Source: Pseudomonadota bacterium (GTDB taxonomy: Bacteria; Pseudomonadota; Alphaproteobacteria; Dongiales; Dongiaceae). From it: 64,000 bases of DNA. The translations under genes and the position numbers were made by a program. Shown in pieces: positions 54,172 through 64,000 of the stretch (position 1 is the stretch's first letter; each line of letters starts with the position of its first letter). The notes beneath the pieces were generated by a model. It did no database searches and was not told the DNA's origin. It was given only the letters and a program-made list of their open reading frames with translations. The DNA lies in assembly GCA_016183985.1 (NCBI GenBank), contig JACPDN010000005.1:186001-250000 (forward strand), read 5' to 3'.

Positions 54172-56010
54172 TTGGCCGGTCCCGAACACCGCGAACGCAA
54201 AGATACCCTCGATTCAAAGCAGGCCCCCTCGGCCTTGACCAATGCTTTTCGAGTCATCCGCAAACATGGCCTGTGGCGCCAGGTTCCGGTCATGATCGGC
54301 GTCATGGCCGCCAGCCTTTTGGAAGGGCTGTCCGTGGCCAGCCTGTTCCCGATTCTGACCATCGTCTCAGGCGACCCCACGGAAAAGCCCAACAAGGCAG
54401 AGCGCTTTGTTCTCGCGGCTCTCGACGTGCTGCATGTTCCGCCCACCCTGGGAGCGCTCATTTTGTTGCTGGGGGCGATCGCCGTCCTGAAGGCAATCAT
54501 TTCGCTAAACGTCAGCCGCTATGTTGGCTTTCTCGTGGCGGAAATCGCCACCGAGATGCGCTCTCGCATGATCGACGCCATGCTGGCGGCCAGGTGGTCC
54601 TATTACACTGTCAACCCGATCGGGCGCTTTGCGAGCGCCATTACCAATGAGGCGAACTGGGGTTCAGCGATTTATCGCACTTCCCTGAACCTGATCATTG
54701 CGGCCATTCAGGCGTCTATCTTCGCCATCATCGTCTTTGTTGTCGACTGGCAAATTGCCCTCGTGGGTTCGTTCATGGCAATTATCGTCGGTGTAACGAT
54801 GCGCCTGCTTATCCGCCGTTCGCGCACATTCGCACGACGTATGTTGATGACCAGCCGGACGATTGTCACCGACCTCAACGACGTGGTCGTAAGCTTCAAG
54901 CCGATGAAGGCCATGCATCGACATGAAGCCCTCATTCAAGAGCTTCGCAACGAGACGAAGTCCCTGCGTGAATCGCTTCGCGAGCTGGTCCTGCTCGAAC
55001 AGCTCGCCGGACAGCTGCCGGACCTGCTGATCATCGTCATGTTGGCCGGCGTTGCCTACGCCGCTGTCGGCTTGCTGCATCTGGACTTGGCCAGCGTCCT
55101 TGTGTCGGGGCTTTTGATTCTCGGCCTCACACGTTCCGTCGCAAAAGTGCATCGCTCAGCCCGCGAATCGGCACATGCGGAAGTAGGCTACTGGTCGTTC
55201 ATGGATACGCTGCGCGAAACCGAGGCTGCTGCAGAATCTTTTAAGGGCAAGGGCACTCCCAGCCTGAAGGCTTCATGCCGCCTCGAAAACGTCACGTTTT
55301 CCTATGGTCGGGCGCCGGTCCTGCGTAATGTTTCGATCGAGCTCACTGCTGGCACGATAACGACCCTCGTCGGTGAATCCGGTTCTGGCAAGACAACCAT
55401 CGCCGACTTGATCCTTGGCTTGTTCGAGCCGGAGCAAGGCCATGTAACTCTCGACGGCGTCCCTATCCGAGAACTTGATATCGGTCGCTGGCGCAGTCAG
55501 GTCGGTTACGTTCCGCAAGAAATTCTCCTGTTCAATGACACCATCTTGGCCAATGTGACGCTTGGAGATCCGACCATCACCGAAGCCGATGCCATACGAG
55601 CACTTGAGATGGCTGGCGCCATGCGCTTCGTTGCCGAACTGGCAAACGGGCTTTTCACGACGGTGGGGGATCGCGGTGTGCTGCTGTCCGGCGGTCAGCG
55701 GCAGCGAATTGCACTAGCCCGCGCGCTGGTGACCGAGCCGGCCCTGCTCATTCTCGACGAAGCGACCAGCGCGCTTGATCCGGAGACGGAGGCCGAAATC
55801 TGCGCTGCAGTCGGCAGGCAGCGCGGCAAGCTAACCGTACTGGCCATTACACACCAACCTGCCTGGGTCGCACTGGCGGACCGGGTCTATCGTATCGATC
55901 AGGGAACCGTGTTCGAAGACAGTTCGGACGGGGTTACGAATGCAGCGGCCCAGATGCCTCAGGTGACGCCGGCTGGAGCTGTCGTGACCTTCCCGTCGCG
56001 GATCTCGTAA
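54172..56010 (+). CDS. ABC exporter half-transporter (permease-ATPase), copy 1
   Basis: 612 residues, start TTG at 54172 with AAAGG eight nt before; a later start near 54235 is possible, since its paralogue lacks the extra N-terminal 20 residues. A six-helix exporter domain (about 40-320) is followed by an ATPase with Walker A GESGSGKTT, signature LSGGQRQR, Walker B LLILDEATSALD and H-loop ITHQPAW. It resembles lipid/polysaccharide exporters (MsbA/PglK-like). The gene overlaps the convergent copy 2 by 52 bp, and the two proteins are clearly related along their length. Confidence 0.92.
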   Translation: MAGPEHRERKDTLDSKQAPSALTNAFRVIRKHGLWRQVPVMIGVMAASLLEGLSVASLFPILTIVSGDPTEKPNKAERFVLAALDVLHVPPTLGALILLLGAIAVLKAIISLNVSRYVGFLVAEIATEMRSRMIDAMLAARWSYYTVNPIGRFASAITNEANWGSAIYRTSLNLIIAAIQASIFAIIVFVVDWQIALVGSFMAIIVGVTMRLLIRRSRTFARRMLMTSRTIVTDLNDVVVSFKPMKAMHRHEALIQELRNETKSLRESLRELVLLEQLAGQLPDLLIIVMLAGVAYAAVGLLHLDLASVLVSGLLILGLTRSVAKVHRSARESAHAEVGYWSFMDTLRETEAAAESFKGKGTPSLKASCRLENVTFSYGRAPVLRNVSIELTAGTITTLVGESGSGKTTIADLILGLFEPEQGHVTLDGVPIRELDIGRWRSQVGYVPQEILLFNDTILANVTLGDPTITEADAIRALEMAGAMRFVAELANGLFTTVGDRGVLLSGGQRQRIALARALVTEPALLILDEATSALDPETEAEICAAVGRQRGKLTVLAITHQPAWVALADRVYRIDQGTVFEDSSDGVTNAAAQMPQVTPAGAVVTFPSRIS

Positions 56011-57665: not shown

Positions 57666-58343
57666 TTAGCTCGTTGCTGCCTTGATCGCCTCAGCCAGGA
57701 CTGTTGGGGCACGATTGCGGCCGTTCCCTACAAACCGCTTGGCCCAGGCTCGGTCCACATGGGTAATCCTTGCAGAAACACTTGGCAACTCAAGTATTTG
57801 CGCCGTCGCCATGCGATGCGTGCCGCGTCGAACATGAATAATTTCGCCGTCGGCGGCGATGCCAAGGCAAATATCGTCATCCCCGCTATAGCGATACCCG
57901 TCCCGCTTCATCGAATTGTAGAGGTCGAGATAGACTTGGCAGTATTCGGCAATTTCAGTTTCGGAATTGAAGATGCGCCCCCGCCCTTCGACCGGCCGGC
58001 CGGCCACCCAGCTTGCTTTAAGCCATTGATATAGGCGTGTTTTTGGAAAATCCTGACCGAAGCGGGCAATATCGGACATGTCCATGTAGGTATAGAGGCC
58101 ATCGATCGGAGCGGCGGGGAGTTCGCCCAGACCCGTGACCAAGAAACGCCCTTTGATCGGGCCAACCGCCTCTGCCGCCAATTTGCGGCGGACCTTCATC
58201 GGTGCCACGCGCACTTGAAGCGCCGACCCAAGTGCTTTGTCCGCAACCTGGGCCAGTTCCCACGCCTTGTTATCGATCGATGGCCAGACACGTAAGGAAA
58301 GCGACGCCAAGCCGCGCCGAATCCCTTCCCCCCATTTACCCAT
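57666..58343 (-). CDS. Uncharacterised protein with ParB/sulfiredoxin-like segment
   Basis: 225 residues that I do not recognise as a named family. The C-terminal third (about 155-205) has a G-x-H-R pattern, IIHVRRGTHRMATAQILELP followed by VSARITHVDR, which resembles the ParB/Srx nucleotide-binding motif. The N-terminal part is polar with no membrane helix. It is 3 nt upstream of ABC copy 2 and 6 nt downstream of the 665-aa gene, so it belongs to that operon. A nucleotide- or CTP-binding role is a guess. Confidence 0.55.
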   Translation of the reverse strand: MGKWGEGIRRGLASLSLRVWPSIDNKAWELAQVADKALGSALQVRVAPMKVRRKLAAEAVGPIKGRFLVTGLGELPAAPIDGLYTYMDMSDIARFGQDFPKTRLYQWLKASWVAGRPVEGRGRIFNSETEIAEYCQVYLDLYNSMKRDGYRYSGDDDICLGIAADGEIIHVRRGTHRMATAQILELPSVSARITHVDRAWAKRFVGNGRNRAPTVLAEAIKAATS

Positions 58344-58349
58344 GCCCGC

Positions 58350-60347
58350 TCAGTATCCCCAGAGATGCTGCAGGCCGACCGCGCCGTTCGGCGAGAGCCC
58401 GAGCACATGCGCCGTAAGATCTGCATCGGCCGATTTCACTTGCAGCGCCGCAATGCCACCCGCGCCGACATGTTGCCGAAGCGTCGGCAACACATCATCC
58501 ATCCACACGATCTCTGACGCAAAGGCTGGCAAGGTGACGAAGTAACTGAGCCTCTCGCCGGCATTGTTGATCGCGGCGATCTCCACCTTGGCGGGCATGT
58601 CGTATTTGAGGTTGCCACTGGCATTGGCGACATAGACGCCCGTGCGGAATCCGTCACGCGTGCGCACACGGCCAATCAAGTTGGTCCGCCCCATAATTCC
58701 GATCGACGGGTGAAGCCAATGCGGCAAGGTCGGAATGTCGGCGCCGACATTTCGCCAGGACGATTGGAACTCAGTGAAGTCCTGGTCGCCGGTCAGGCGG
58801 TGACGCACAGCCATATCCGATGTCGTGACCAGGCGCTGCGGCGCCAGGCCGATCTTGAGATGATCCGGACAGACAAGGGCAGTCACTACCTCGGATTTAC
58901 GCGGGTTCGACCATCCGGCCATCACGTCATCAAGATAGGCAGGCCCGACAAAATCCTTGTGATAGCGCATCTCACCGACAAGGCTGCCATTACGGTCATA
59001 GAAGCGCAGCCAGTAATCGTCGAAGGGCGGGTTCGAAGCGTCGAAATTGAAGCCGAACGATAAAGCGTCATTGATGCTCGTGACCGGCAGACAGCATGGA
59101 TGGATCATAAACCCGGCGTTGATTGCCGTTTCCACGATACGTTTTTCATCCGGCGTGAAAAGTATGTCGTTGCGGTTGTCGACACCCACACGGCAGAGGT
59201 GGTTTGCTGCAATGGAGCCGACCTTACCCGGTTGCTGCGAGAAGCCCTGATCCAGCGCGTACCAGAAAGAAGTTCCGTATCCCGCATAGGAAGCCGCAAA
59301 ATAATTGCGTTCCTTGGCGGCACCTGCAGCACGCTTGAAATGCACTTCTTCAACCGGTCGCACGCGGGAGCGCTTGATCGACGTCTTGTTTGCGCCGACG
59401 CCAATCTTCACTTCGTCATCGGCCCCCATGTCCAGATCGTAATTGGGCACCGTCATCACGACCTCACCGCTGCGTACGACGGAATCGATCAAGCGGAACG
59501 GCTGCACCTTGTTTGGATTTTTGAAGAACTGATGCGAGCCATGAATGATCGTGAAGCTGTCCTTCCAGAAAACATCGCCGCAGACGCGGAAGCGATAGTG
59601 CCGCCCGCGCGTCAGGAAAGGATGCGCCACAAAAACCTTCATGCAGACCGCACCCTTGCGATCCGGCATCAGGGATTTGAGATTGAGATTCACCGACTCG
59701 CTGGGGCCGAGCACCAGGTAGGAGCGGCGCGTCTCGCCCTCGGCAATAATTTCGAAACGAAATTGCAGCGGATCCTTGATGCCAAAGAATTCTTCGAAGT
59801 GATTGAAGGCCAGGGCGTCGACATCGTCGATTTCCAGGGGGACCGCGGCTGTGCCGGCGCAGAATTCCCAATTCTGGGCGACCCAATGAACGGGTGTCCT
59901 GGGCGCGTGGGCATGGGCCAGGCGCAAGCTATACCGGAACTTGGTCCCCACATCCGCCCCGCCTGCAACGATCGCATCGCAATCCCTGATTGTCGCGGCG
60001 TTCACCGGAAGCGCACCTTTGGGCTGGTCGCCAACGATATCGGTTGAAATCCAAAACGTCTCGATCCCACCCGCTTCGGCCTGGAATGCTTCGTAAAATG
60101 CCTGGTCGCTATGGACTGCAACGCGCCGCGCACCATCGGCACGCAACAAATCCAGCACAGCCGCAACGGACTGGCTGACCTTGGTCTTCGTATCTGGCGC
60201 TGCAACCGGAGGTGTGCCCGCCTTGAATTTCTTTTTCTTCGCCTTCGGCTTCGGCAAGAGCCAATCAAAAAGCGCACTGGCACCGGATTTTGGCTCGTTG
60301 CTGCCGGAACGCTGGCCCACCGACAGTTCAATATCCGAGGTCTTCAT
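58350..60347 (-). CDS. Uncharacterised 665-residue protein in the envelope island
   Basis: I do not recognise this protein. A Lys/Pro-rich N-terminal stretch (PKPKAKKKKFKAG, about residues 32-44) precedes a possible Rossmann-like part (ARRVAVHSDQAFYEAF ... CDAIVAGGADVG). A long region of beta character follows, with CMKVFVAHPFLTRGRHYRFR, FMIHPCCLPVTSIND and a last beta domain (RTGVYVANASGNLKYD). No signal peptide, no membrane helix. First gene of the minus-strand run ending in ABC copy 2, and divergent from the sphingolipid genes across 210 nt. Its role may be in preparing or presenting the exported molecule. Confidence 0.6.
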   Translation of the reverse strand: MKTSDIELSVGQRSGSNEPKSGASALFDWLLPKPKAKKKKFKAGTPPVAAPDTKTKVSQSVAAVLDLLRADGARRVAVHSDQAFYEAFQAEAGGIETFWISTDIVGDQPKGALPVNAATIRDCDAIVAGGADVGTKFRYSLRLAHAHAPRTPVHWVAQNWEFCAGTAAVPLEIDDVDALAFNHFEEFFGIKDPLQFRFEIIAEGETRRSYLVLGPSESVNLNLKSLMPDRKGAVCMKVFVAHPFLTRGRHYRFRVCGDVFWKDSFTIIHGSHQFFKNPNKVQPFRLIDSVVRSGEVVMTVPNYDLDMGADDEVKIGVGANKTSIKRSRVRPVEEVHFKRAAGAAKERNYFAASYAGYGTSFWYALDQGFSQQPGKVGSIAANHLCRVGVDNRNDILFTPDEKRIVETAINAGFMIHPCCLPVTSINDALSFGFNFDASNPPFDDYWLRFYDRNGSLVGEMRYHKDFVGPAYLDDVMAGWSNPRKSEVVTALVCPDHLKIGLAPQRLVTTSDMAVRHRLTGDQDFTEFQSSWRNVGADIPTLPHWLHPSIGIMGRTNLIGRVRTRDGFRTGVYVANASGNLKYDMPAKVEIAAINNAGERLSYFVTLPAFASEIVWMDDVLPTLRQHVGAGGIAALQVKSADADLTAHVLGLSPNGAVGLQHLWGY

Positions 60348-60557: not shown

Positions 60558-62297
60558 ATGACTTTGCAACCGACACCGACCACGAATACCAGCCTTAAAC
60601 ACCGTCGCAGCAGTTTTGATACGCTGTGGGAAGCGCTGGACTATGCCGCGGGCGGCGCCACCGGTTTGAACTTCTACACGGCCAAGGGCGACCTTGCCAA
60701 TGTGCTGAGCTATGCCGAATTGCGCGACCGGGCACGGGATGTCGCACAACGACTCGCCGGCTTGGGCCTGGAGCGCGGTTCGCGCATCGTGTTGATTGCC
60801 GATACCGATCCCGATTTCGTGATCGCCTTCTTCGCCACGCAATATGCGGGATTGCTGCCGGTTCCGGTTGCGATTCCGACCAGCCTTGGCGGTCGCGAAG
60901 CCTATATCGCGCAGCTCCGCCAGCAATTGTCGGGATGTGAGGCCAGCGCGGCGCTCGGCCCAGCCTCCCTCATGGGTTTCCTCAGCGAGGCCGCGGCGGG
61001 TCTCTCGCACCTGCGCCATGTTGGCACTTTAGGCGATCTCGCTGCCATGCCGGCAAACAAGGGCATTGTGCGCCCCTTCGCTGCCGATGAACCCAGCTAT
61101 CTGCAATTTTCCTCCGGCTCGACGCGCTTTCCAAAGGGCATCGAGATTCATCAGCGCGTGCTGATGGCCAATGCCTATGCGATCACGCATCACGGGCTGG
61201 ATATTGTCGACACAGACCGATGCAGCTCTTGGCTCCCCTTCTATCATGACATGGGATTGGTGGGTTTCCTGCTGGTGCCGGCGACCGGCCAGGTCTCCGT
61301 CGACTACATCGCCACGCGCGACTTTGCCCGGCGCCCCCTCACCTGGCTCAAACTGATTTCGGAGAATGGAGGCACACTCGCCTATTCGCCGACTTTCGGC
61401 TACGAGTTGTGCGTGAAGCGCATGCGTGGCGACAGCGATTTTGCCGGTGACCTGTCGAGCTGGCGCGGCGCCGGCATCGGCGGCGATATGGTGCAAGACG
61501 CCATCCTTCATCGCTTCAGCGATACCTTTGCGCCGTTCGGTTTTCAGCATAAGGCCTTCGTGCCGAGCTACGGCATGGCGGAAACCACTCTGGCGATGAG
61601 TTTCGCGCGTCTGGATCAGGAGTACCGCGTCGACCACATCGATCGTGGCGGCCTTGAGAGCCAGCTTGCCAACCCTGTTGCGCCCGGTAAATCGGCCCGC
61701 AGCCTTGTCGCCTGTGGCCCGGCGCTGCCGCTTCACACTTTCGAGATCCGCGATGAAGCCGGAAATGCGCTGCCCGAGCGCCGTGTCGGTCGCATCTTCT
61801 TCAGCGGGCCGAGTGTCATGGCCGGCTATTTCCGCCAGCCGGAACTGACCGCCGAAGCGTTAAGCATCGACGGTTGGCTCGACACCGGCGATCTGGGTTA
61901 TCTGCTTGATGGTGAGATCGTCATCACCGGCCGCGCCAAGGATCTGATCATTATCAACGGCCGCAATATCTGGCCGCAGGATCTGGAATGGACGGCGGAA
62001 ACATTGCCGGATTTGCGTCGTGGCGATGCGGCCGCCTTCTCGGTGCTGGGCGAAGCAGATGAAGAGCAGGTCGTCGTGCTTGTCCAATGCCGGATAAGCG
62101 ATCTTGCCGCGCGAACCAAGCTGAAACAGGACATCGCCGGATTGCTGCAGCGATCGATGGGTGTGGAGGCACGCATCGAACTGGTACCGCCCAAGGGGCT
62201 GCCGCAAACCTCCTCCGGCAAGCTGTCGCGGGCCAAGGCCAAGGCCAATTACCTTCAGGGTCTGTACGCGGACGCCGATCTTGGCATCAGCGCCTAG
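60558..62297 (+). CDS. aasR: Fatty-acyl-AMP ligase / acyl-ACP synthetase (AasR-like)
   Basis: 579 residues, adenylate-forming enzyme of the FAAL type. The AMP-binding P-loop is FSSGSTRFPKG (184-194), in which the usual small residue after ST is an arginine. Other motifs are FYHDMGLVGFLLVP, SYGMAETTLA, WLDTGDLGYL and a C-terminal SGKLSRAKAKANY lysine region. The gene is followed by a CerR-like dehydrogenase, an ACP and Spt. In Caulobacter the corresponding AasR loads fatty acid onto the dedicated carrier AcpR for sphingolipid synthesis. That specific role is inferred from order. Confidence 0.85.
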   Translation: MTLQPTPTTNTSLKHRRSSFDTLWEALDYAAGGATGLNFYTAKGDLANVLSYAELRDRARDVAQRLAGLGLERGSRIVLIADTDPDFVIAFFATQYAGLLPVPVAIPTSLGGREAYIAQLRQQLSGCEASAALGPASLMGFLSEAAAGLSHLRHVGTLGDLAAMPANKGIVRPFAADEPSYLQFSSGSTRFPKGIEIHQRVLMANAYAITHHGLDIVDTDRCSSWLPFYHDMGLVGFLLVPATGQVSVDYIATRDFARRPLTWLKLISENGGTLAYSPTFGYELCVKRMRGDSDFAGDLSSWRGAGIGGDMVQDAILHRFSDTFAPFGFQHKAFVPSYGMAETTLAMSFARLDQEYRVDHIDRGGLESQLANPVAPGKSARSLVACGPALPLHTFEIRDEAGNALPERRVGRIFFSGPSVMAGYFRQPELTAEALSIDGWLDTGDLGYLLDGEIVITGRAKDLIIINGRNIWPQDLEWTAETLPDLRRGDAAAFSVLGEADEEQVVVLVQCRISDLAARTKLKQDIAGLLQRSMGVEARIELVPPKGLPQTSSGKLSRAKAKANYLQGLYADADLGISA

Positions 62298-62318
62298 CTT
62301 TCTTCCGGTTCCATCCAG

Positions 62319-63266
62319 ATGACCGGGCTGGTTGCCGTCACGGGTGCCACCGGTTTTGTCGGTGCGGCAGCAGTCCACCATTTGGCGCGCGCTGGCTGGC
62401 GCGTTCGCATTCTGACCCGGCGCATGCCCCTGGCGGCCCTGATGCCGGATCATGCAATCGAAGTCGTGCTCGGCGATATTGATGACCGCCTGGCGCTGGA
62501 ACGCTTGGTGGCCGGCGCCGATGCCATTGTCCATTGCGCGGGCCTTACCAAGGCACTAGCACCGCTCGAATTCTTCAAAGTGAACGAGAGCGGTACTGTG
62601 CGGCTGCTGGAAGCCGCTCAAAAGGCCGCCCCCCAGGCCCGTTTCATCCATATCTCCTCGCTGGCAGCACGTGAGCCGCAGCTGTCCCCCTACGCCGCGA
62701 GTAAGCGCGCCGGAGAAGACAAACTGCCCGTTCTGGCGGGCGCGCGGGATTGGATCGCCCTGCGTCCGCCTGTGGTTTACGGGCCAGGCGACCTGGCCTT
62801 GCTGCCGCTCTTCAAGGCTACAAAATTTGGCCTTTCCGCCTATCCGGCAACCCCTGGCACCAGGGTCTCGACCATCCATGTTTCGGATCTTGCGGCCGCC
62901 ATCGTGGTGTTGCTTGGAACCGGCAACTGGCCGCATCGGATCATCGAATTGGATGACGGCCATCCGGGCGGCTATGACTGGCCGGAAATTAACCATGTTC
63001 TTGGGCGATGCTTCGGACGCCAACCGTTGGCGCTCCGCCTGCCCCGTCCCTTGATGACCGGCGTTGCCGGCGCGGTGACCCTGGTCTCGCAGCTGACACG
63101 AACGCCCCGAGTTCTGTCACTCGACAAACTGGCCGAGCTCTATCACCCCGATTGGGTCGCTTCCGGCGCAAAATTGGCGGAAACCACATCCTGGCGGCCC
63201 AGCTTTGATCTTAACCGCGGCTTTGCCGACACCCTGACTTGGTATCGATCCGAAGCTTTGCTGTAA
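62319..63266 (+). CDS. cerR: NAD(P)-dependent epimerase/dehydratase family protein, ceramide-reductase-like (CerR)
   Basis: 315-residue extended short-chain dehydrogenase. The nucleotide-binding motif is GATGFVG (9-15), the catalytic Y-x3-K is in SPYAASKRAGE with an upstream serine pair (HISSLA), and PPVVYGPGD follows. In Caulobacter, CerR reduces the 3-keto group in ceramide synthesis and is an epimerase-like protein encoded beside spt. The neighbours here (acyl ligase before, ACP and Spt after) favour that role over a sugar epimerase. It begins 21 nt after the ligase gene. Confidence 0.8.
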   Translation: MTGLVAVTGATGFVGAAAVHHLARAGWRVRILTRRMPLAALMPDHAIEVVLGDIDDRLALERLVAGADAIVHCAGLTKALAPLEFFKVNESGTVRLLEAAQKAAPQARFIHISSLAAREPQLSPYAASKRAGEDKLPVLAGARDWIALRPPVVYGPGDLALLPLFKATKFGLSAYPATPGTRVSTIHVSDLAAAIVVLLGTGNWPHRIIELDDGHPGGYDWPEINHVLGRCFGRQPLALRLPRPLMTGVAGAVTLVSQLTRTPRVLSLDKLAELYHPDWVASGAKLAETTSWRPSFDLNRGFADTLTWYRSEALL

Positions 63267-63268
63267 GG

Positions 63269-63285
63269 TTAGGCTCGGGGCCTAA
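63269..63285. promoter_or_regulatory. Hairpin TTAGGC-tcggg-GCCTAA after cerR
   Basis: A 6-bp perfect stem with a 5-nt loop that begins right after the cerR stop, extendable as GGTTAGGC ... GCCTAATACC with one bulge. No T-run follows, so it is at best a weak terminator or RNA-processing site between cerR and acpR. Confidence 0.35.
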
Positions 63286-63303
63286 TACCCTGGAATCGCT
63301 CAC

Positions 63304-63322
63304 TTGTTACATTCGGTAACAA
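63304..63322. promoter_or_regulatory. Operator-like palindrome TTGTTAC-attcg-GTAACAA upstream of acpR-spt
   Basis: A perfect 7+5+7 inverted repeat in the 184-nt gap between cerR and the ACP gene. The gap is the longest within the sphingolipid genes, so acpR-spt probably have their own promoter here. AT-rich sequence (CATTTAACTTTAG) follows within 20 nt. I cannot name the regulator. Confidence 0.5.
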
Positions 63323-63450
63323 TTCGTCATTTAACTTTAGCCGCGAAATTTACGACAACCTCTGCAGGCAGGTTGGCTTGAGTCGCTTTCGTGCCTAAGG
63401 GGTTCCCGACGTTAACAGATTCGACAACAAGAAAAGATTGGTCCGGCATC

Positions 63451-63726
63451 GTGACGGCGAGCGCAGCGCAGGTTTCTAATTCCACTATCGAGAATGTCGT
63501 GGCGGAGATCGCCACCGCGCTGGTGCCGTTCAAGAAGTCCGATATCGAGATCACCGCGGCGACCGATATCGCCCGTGACCTCAACATGGACTCGCTGGCA
63601 GTCATGGATTTGCTGATGGAGCTCGAAGACAAGTTCGACGTCTCCATTCCGCTCAACATGGTGCCCGAGATTGCCACGGTCGGACAGCTTGCCCAGACCG
63701 TGATCGATTCAAAGAAGGGGGCGTAA
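63451..63726 (+). CDS. acpR: Acyl carrier protein of the sphingolipid locus (AcpR-like)
   Basis: About 91 residues if started at the GTG at 63451 (VTASAAQVSNSTIENVV); the track starts at 63391, also GTG, and neither has a strong ribosome site. It has an acidic ACP fold with the phosphopantetheine serine S48 in LNMDSLAVMDLLMELEDKF. It is separate from the housekeeping AcpP, which is usually found with fab genes. The spt start follows its TAA by one nt. The expected role is to carry the fatty acyl group loaded by the ligase to Spt. Confidence 0.88.
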   Translation: MTASAAQVSNSTIENVVAEIATALVPFKKSDIEITAATDIARDLNMDSLAVMDLLMELEDKFDVSIPLNMVPEIATVGQLAQTVIDSKKGA

Positions 63727-63727
63727 G

Positions 63728-64000
63728 ATGGGGTTGATGGATCGTTTCAAGGCGCAGCGCGAGCTGCATGCCGCCGTGAAGACCTGCGGCGCCGATCCGT
63801 TCGGTGTGAAGATGGATAAGATCGTTTCCTCGACCGAGGCGATGATCGAAGGCCGTCGCACCATTCTTTGCGGTTCCAACAACTATCTCGGCTTCACCTT
63901 CGATGCCGATTGCATCGAGGCCGCCAAGAAAGCGCTTGAGACGAGTGGCACCGGCACCACCGGCTCGCGCATCGCTAACGGTTCGTATAACGACCATAAG
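63728..64000 (+). CDS. spt: Serine palmitoyltransferase (N-terminal 91 residues; cut by window end)
   Basis: Not in the ORF track because it is open at the end. The ATG at 63728 follows AAGAAGGGGGCG. The translation MGLMDRFKAQRELHAAVKTC ... CGSNNYLGFTFD ... GTGTTGSRIANGSYNDHK is that of the alpha-oxoamine synthase family (KBL/BioF/HemA/Spt). The context of ACP, CerR-like and acyl ligase genes selects Spt, which condenses serine with an acyl thioester, the first step of sphingolipid synthesis. The PLP lysine and most of the enzyme lie beyond 64000. Confidence 0.85.
   Translation, partial: MGLMDRFKAQRELHAAVKTCGADPFGVKMDKIVSSTEAMIEGRRTILCGSNNYLGFTFDADCIEAAKKALETSGTGTTGSRIANGSYNDHK

Follow-up and report, generated by a model that had tools for sequence, protein, structure and literature searches.

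A Caulobacter-type sphingolipid locus holding the only LptF/LptG pair of a Dongiaceae bacterium that appears to have lost lipopolysaccharide

Gram-negative bacteria usually have lipopolysaccharide (LPS) as the lipid of their outer surface. The soil-type alphaproteobacterium examined here carries a full set of sphingolipid genes and, judged from its gene content, appears to have lost LPS. Its genome has neither LpxC nor LpxK, it holds a single LptF/LptG (LptFG) pair, located within the sphingolipid cluster, and the canonical lptF-lptG genes are missing from beside lptD. We regard it as probable that this locus makes ceramide, adds a phosphorylated headgroup and exports the product, which replaces LPS in the outer membrane (OM).

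The source of the DNA is a Dongia, or a near relative in the Dongiaceae; the closest named relatives by Spt comparison were Dongia, which the NCBI taxonomy places in Dongiaceae, Rhodospirillales. The genome is 4.65 Mb in 16 contigs, with an estimated completeness of 100%, and the window, the whole 64,000-base stretch of DNA that was analysed, covers bases 186001-250000 of contig C11 (G000:C11). In the counts below, genus and family are the groups assigned by the genome collection, and the class-wide sample comprised 387 genomes of Alphaproteobacteria, each at least 90% complete. The ceramide genes are as follows.

Window 60558-62297, + strand: aasR, fatty acyl-AMP ligase / acyl-ACP synthetase, 579 aa (NCBIfam NF006624)
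Window 62319-63266, + strand: cerR, ceramide reductase of the epimerase/dehydrogenase family, 315 aa (PF01370)
Window 63391-63726, + strand: acpR, stand-alone acyl carrier protein, 111 aa (PF00550 PP-binding, DSL motif)
Window 63728-64000, + strand: spt, serine palmitoyltransferase, the first 91 of 406 codons (NF047599)
G000:C11 260264-261400, + strand: bCerS, GNAT-like acyltransferase, with 41% identity to E. coli YghO across 377 aa

The first-pass annotation had taken the first four genes, running in one direction in the Caulobacter order, for a ceramide locus, and had supposed that the missing acyltransferase, bCerS, might lie past position 64000. All four start where it placed them, on the + strand, each with a confirming profile match, and the order of the cluster resembles that of CC_1165-CC_1152 in Caulobacter. 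When the sequence was extended past 64000, both bCerS, ~10 kb downstream of spt, and candidate headgroup genes were present. In E. coli B the ceramide acyltransferase is listed as the product of yghO (PMC9386255), and at 41% identity to YghO the GNAT-like protein completes the set of five ceramide genes. AasR scored 800 bits on NF006624 (cut-off 600) and shares 48% identity with the ligase encoded in the E. coli spt locus, CerR is 38% identical to the epimerase of that locus, and AcpR is 40% identical across 72 aa to its ACP. The complete spt gene, immediately preceded by acpR, occupies 249728-250948 of the contig (its end equivalent to window position 64948) and encodes 406 aa. Each of the 17 family genomes searched has Spt (61-100% identity), and most of the 66 related contigs, among them 30 of the 31 contigs above 20 kb, carry aasR, cerR, acpR and spt together; the association of the four genes is therefore far beyond chance.

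The rest of the cluster, a block conserved in the Dongiaceae and in other families, and one flanking gene are listed here.

G000:C11 251016-251633, - strand: DinB-like gene, after spt
G000:C11 251620-252531, - strand: 303-aa protein, Tam41-like by the predicted fold of its orthologue
G000:C11 252553-253509, - strand: DAGK-type lipid kinase, GGDG motif
G000:C11 253512-254630, - strand: first CDP-alcohol transferase
G000:C11 254814-255782, + strand: metallophosphoesterase
G000:C11 255826-257034, + strand: LptF
G000:C11 257031-258122, + strand: LptG
G000:C11 258126-259337, + strand: second CDP-alcohol transferase
G000:C11 from 259449, + strand: fatty-acid hydroxylase
G000:C11 261397-262206, + strand: MobA-like nucleotidyltransferase, after bCerS
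Window 54172-56010, + strand: ABC transporter with membrane and ATPase domains (PF00664, PF00005)

By analogy with relatives of tested function, AasR would charge AcpR with a fatty acid, Spt would condense the fatty acid with serine, bCerS would add the second chain and CerR would reduce the ketone. The lipid kinase would then yield ceramide-1-phosphate and the Tam41-like cytidylyltransferase CDP-ceramide. Headgroup attachment would fall to the CDP-alcohol transferases and the nucleotidyltransferase, and as in Caulobacter the headgroup is probably phosphoglycerate. Finally, on comparative evidence, the LptFG pair of the cluster (LptF2G2) could work with LptB, LptC, LptA and LptD of the LPS machine to carry the lipid to the OM.

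The activation step deserves comment. The 303-aa protein had no Pfam match, even at a lax threshold. However, when the fold of the orthologue in an uncultured Dongia was modelled with AlphaFold (mean pLDDT 85), its best matches were the Tam41 CDP-diacylglycerol synthases 7ecd, 6ig2 and 6ig4 (E 8e-8, TM-score ~0.5, 13-16% identity). Taken with the neighbouring lipid kinase, the Tam41-like fold suggests a route from ceramide through ceramide-1-phosphate and CDP-ceramide to headgroup transfer, in which this protein may activate ceramide to CDP-ceramide. Such a step has already been suspected for CC_1161, the gene in the same place in Caulobacter (PMC11324152). The kinase, the Tam41-like protein, the CDP-alcohol transferases and the nucleotidyltransferase all sit at places matching the Caulobacter cluster, in a comparison made by gene position.

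Other genes recur around the locus. The metallophosphoesterase was present in 28 of the 31 long contigs, short Reyranella clusters included, and its presence in nearly all clusters suggests that it is part of the core sphingolipid pathway. For Caulobacter, CC_1157 and one other gene in the cluster have been regarded as unrelated (PMC11324152). The ABC transporter has homologues directly beside aasR in the family member G008 (42% identical) and upstream of the Dongia deserti locus (48% identical); it may be a lipid flippase. Between it and aasR, window positions 57666-60347 encode two proteins of 225 and 665 aa that adjoin aasR and hold a conserved position in D. deserti (42% and 66% identity); neither had a Pfam match.

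The loss of LPS was judged from the two Lpx genes searched, LpxC and LpxK. LpxC was found neither in the source genome nor in any of the seven genomes of its genus, in a search where Caulobacter gave the positive control match; in the family it was present in G007, G008, G010 and G014. LpxK was likewise not found in the source genome or in any LpxC-less family member; it was present in G008, G010 and G014 and absent from G007 (94% complete), which has LpxC. Across the class, LpxC was identified in 341 of the 387 genomes and Spt, counted at E below 1e-90, in 56 from many families, 32 of which had no LpxC. The remaining classes were 24 genomes with both, 14 with neither and 317 with LpxC alone, so that Spt presence and LpxC absence are associated with a Fisher odds ratio of 30 (p 6e-21, kinship ignored).

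The source genome nevertheless has LptB, LptC, LptA, LptD, LptF and LptG. The lptC, lptA and lptB genes are adjacent (LptB and LptA were read from the sequence beside LptC), LptD is on another contig, and no second LptC was found in the genome. Beside lptC-lptA-lptB is a KdsD-like gene (G000:C2, L208 6668-7750), named from sequence as a putative arabinose-5-phosphate isomerase, a Kdo precursor enzyme, and kept despite the missing lipid A genes. In LPS genomes of several families the gene order is holC-pepA-lptF-lptG-lptD, with pepA or LptD not beside the pair in a few fetched stretches, and E. coli K-12 has holC-pepA-lptF-lptG. In 13 LpxC-less genomes from four families (f1, f13, f39, f87), lptF-lptG is absent between pepA and lptD. 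Loss of the canonical lptFG from this junction is the likelier direction of change, because the order that includes the pair is shared with E. coli. With LpxC, LpxK and canonical lptF-lptG all missing, this looks, from gene content, like an Lpt system with a different presumed cargo.

Copy numbers point the same way. In the family, each of the four LpxC genomes has two LptFG pairs and the LpxC-less genomes have one, the exceptions being G004, with an extra fragment below the cut-off, and G016 (68% complete), without LptFG. Class-wide, a second pair, defined as four or more LptFG matches in a genome, was present in 23 of the 24 genomes with Spt and LpxC, in 2 of the 317 with LpxC only, in 1 of the 32 with Spt only and in none of the 14 with neither; G089 and G311 contradict the rule. 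The Spt-bearing genomes without LpxC mostly hold a single LptFG pair, and LptD was retained in 28 of these 32. Among the 14 genomes with neither gene, six, all small, had no LptFG or LptD, and the other eight, which keep LptFG and LptD, may be drafts missing LpxC.

In LptF and LptG trees, all lptD-linked pairs fell in one clade (support 99/99 for LptF and 100/100 for LptG), and all pairs from LpxC-less genomes fell outside it, most of them among the spt-linked pairs, with the f13 LptG placement weakly supported. A second pair of trees was computed without the very long-branched rows G321, G371 and G072. Mapped on either tree, the LPS-less label changes five times; well-supported branches demand four of these changes for LptF and two for LptG. 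Since these are gene trees, they are only a guide to the number of LPS losses. Lysines 34, 40 and 41 of E. coli LptG were considered as a cargo signature and set aside as not discriminating, because canonical alphaproteobacterial LptG mostly lacks them. Together, the copy numbers and the grouping of the LpxC-less pairs with spt-linked pairs support LptF2G2 as a candidate sphingolipid export permease.

A different cargo for the bridge has to be weighed. The cell could be an LPS-less sphingolipid maker in which Lpt carries something else, for example another glycolipid, with LptF2G2 in the cluster for some other reason. Sphingolipid as the Lpt cargo is presumed, and in four Reyranella-type genomes with Spt (f64), none of LpxC, LptFG, LptD or LptC was found. 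These genomes are an exception, apparently with neither LPS nor an Lpt bridge, and indicate that Lpt is not required by every sphingolipid maker. In the Reyranella and Enhydrobacter contigs the cluster is short, made up of aasR, cerR, acpR, spt, metallophosphoesterase and bCerS (Reyranella-type loci L149, in G080, and L020, L036 and L047). However, LptF2G2 lies within the sphingolipid cluster in many families, the second pair occurs almost only with Spt (23 of 24 against 2 of 317), and LptFG and LptD are gone from 6 of the 14 genomes that have neither Spt nor LpxC. We therefore consider another cargo unlikely.

Alternatively, the cell could bear LPS in the normal way and have an ordinary Caulobacter-type ceramide locus, with assembly gaps or unrecognised divergent genes behind the apparent lack of LpxC, LpxK and canonical LptFG. 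The genome is in 16 contigs, the absence of a single gene can be an artefact, and LpxK is also missing from G007 in spite of its LpxC. Such an explanation is very unlikely, given the 100% completeness, the absence of LpxC from seven of seven genus members and the concurrent absence of LpxK. Moreover, the pepA-lptD junction of the source genome is intact and sequenced, with the two genes 308 bases apart and no lptFG between them, as in 12 further genomes.

A further alternative makes the spt product a different alpha-oxoamine synthase (BioF, KBL, ALAS or an autoinducer synthase) and the four genes a secondary-metabolite cassette, such loci also containing fatty acyl-AMP ligases and stand-alone ACPs; it is already contradicted and can be given almost no weight: full-length Spt scored 660 bits on the NCBIfam serine palmitoyltransferase model NF047599 (cut-off 500) and under the cut-offs of the BioF, KBL and ALAS models, KBL and ALAS have separate genes in the source genome, and bCerS and CerR are nearby. 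The first-pass annotation had named grouping with BioF or KBL as one outcome that would speak against its reading. In the tree, 25 Spt rows stood on one side of a branch with support 100/99, apart from BioF, KBL and ALAS, and the nearest solved structures were sphingomonad SPTs, among them the serine palmitoyltransferase 2x8u. The ceramide reading is thus upheld by profile, tree and the presence of bCerS.

We return to sphingolipid export in place of LPS. We lean towards the view that several alphaproteobacterial lineages beyond the sphingomonads lost LPS independently, on a background with a sphingolipid locus and its own LptFG, and that the Lpt cargo changed when the canonical LptFG was lost and the sphingolipid pair retained. 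If true, LptFG would be the part deciding which lipid the Lpt bridge exports. A 2020 survey treated sphingolipids as restricted, within the class, to Sphingomonadales (PMC7179689), and a literature search of limited scope found no survey of LPS loss together with sphingolipids in Alphaproteobacteria. The route of bacterial sphingolipids to the OM has been stated as not known, and LptC2F2G2 was proposed in 2024 as the sphingolipid transporter of Caulobacter, without a test there (PMC11324152). The persistence of the same pair once LPS is gone is comparative evidence for sphingolipid LptFG as that permease, and the new part is that the Lpt bridge was apparently kept for sphingolipids after LPS loss in a non-sphingomonad lineage. 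Culturable Dongia and Reyranella are candidates for the study of LPS-free OMs.

Among known systems, the E. coli spt locus (yghO, acyl-AMP ligase, epimerase, ACP, spt, lptG, lptF) shares the five ceramide genes and the adjacent LptFG, but E. coli keeps LPS and no Dongia-type headgroup genes were seen within the stretch viewed. In a quick tree with long branches, the E. coli spt-linked LptFG grouped with canonical LptFG and hence with a different lineage from the alphaproteobacterial spt-linked pairs, which suggests a separate recruitment. The stretch from acyl-AMP ligase to spt was matched in 4115 of 5426 complete E. coli genomes, about three quarters; the genome viewed, NZ_CP104613.1, has yghO and a second lptF/lptG beside it. 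A Klebsiella michiganensis conjugative plasmid (NZ_CP106839.1) carries acyltransferase, aasR, cerR, acpR, spt, lptF and lptG together, by its predicted genes a mobile cassette that combines sphingolipid synthesis with an Lpt permease of its own; megablast gave no match between this locus and that of E. coli, and a more sensitive search did. A Roseomonas marmotae plasmid has acpR, spt, headgroup genes and two LptF/LptG permeases.

Sphingomonads have glycosphingolipids instead of LPS. The source genome resembles them in the apparent absence of LPS and the presence of sphingolipid genes, and LptD is also kept, with no canonical lptFG, in five genomes of f13 in which Spt matches the alphaproteobacterial (sphingomonad-type) model. 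However, sphingomonads belong to another order, the headgroup genes found here suggest a phosphosphingolipid and not a sugar headgroup, and the sphingolipid genes are clustered, whereas in S. wittichii and Zymomonas they are scattered (PMC11324152).

The closest comparison is with the phosphosphingolipid cluster CC_1168-CC_1152 of Caulobacter crescentus, which makes the ceramide phosphoglycerates CPG and CPG2 (PMC11324152). Both have the five ceramide genes, genes for a lipid kinase and for a CDP-alcohol transferase next to spt, and LptF and LptG followed by the acyltransferase and the nucleotidyltransferase, in similar order. Compared by gene content and order, the source cluster differs in an extra CDP-alcohol transferase, a fatty-acid hydroxylase and no second LptC found. 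In Caulobacter the LPS genes are present and the cluster LptFG is a second set, whereas in the source genome, with no LpxC, it is the sole set. The source locus belongs to the Caulobacter-type sphingolipid family.
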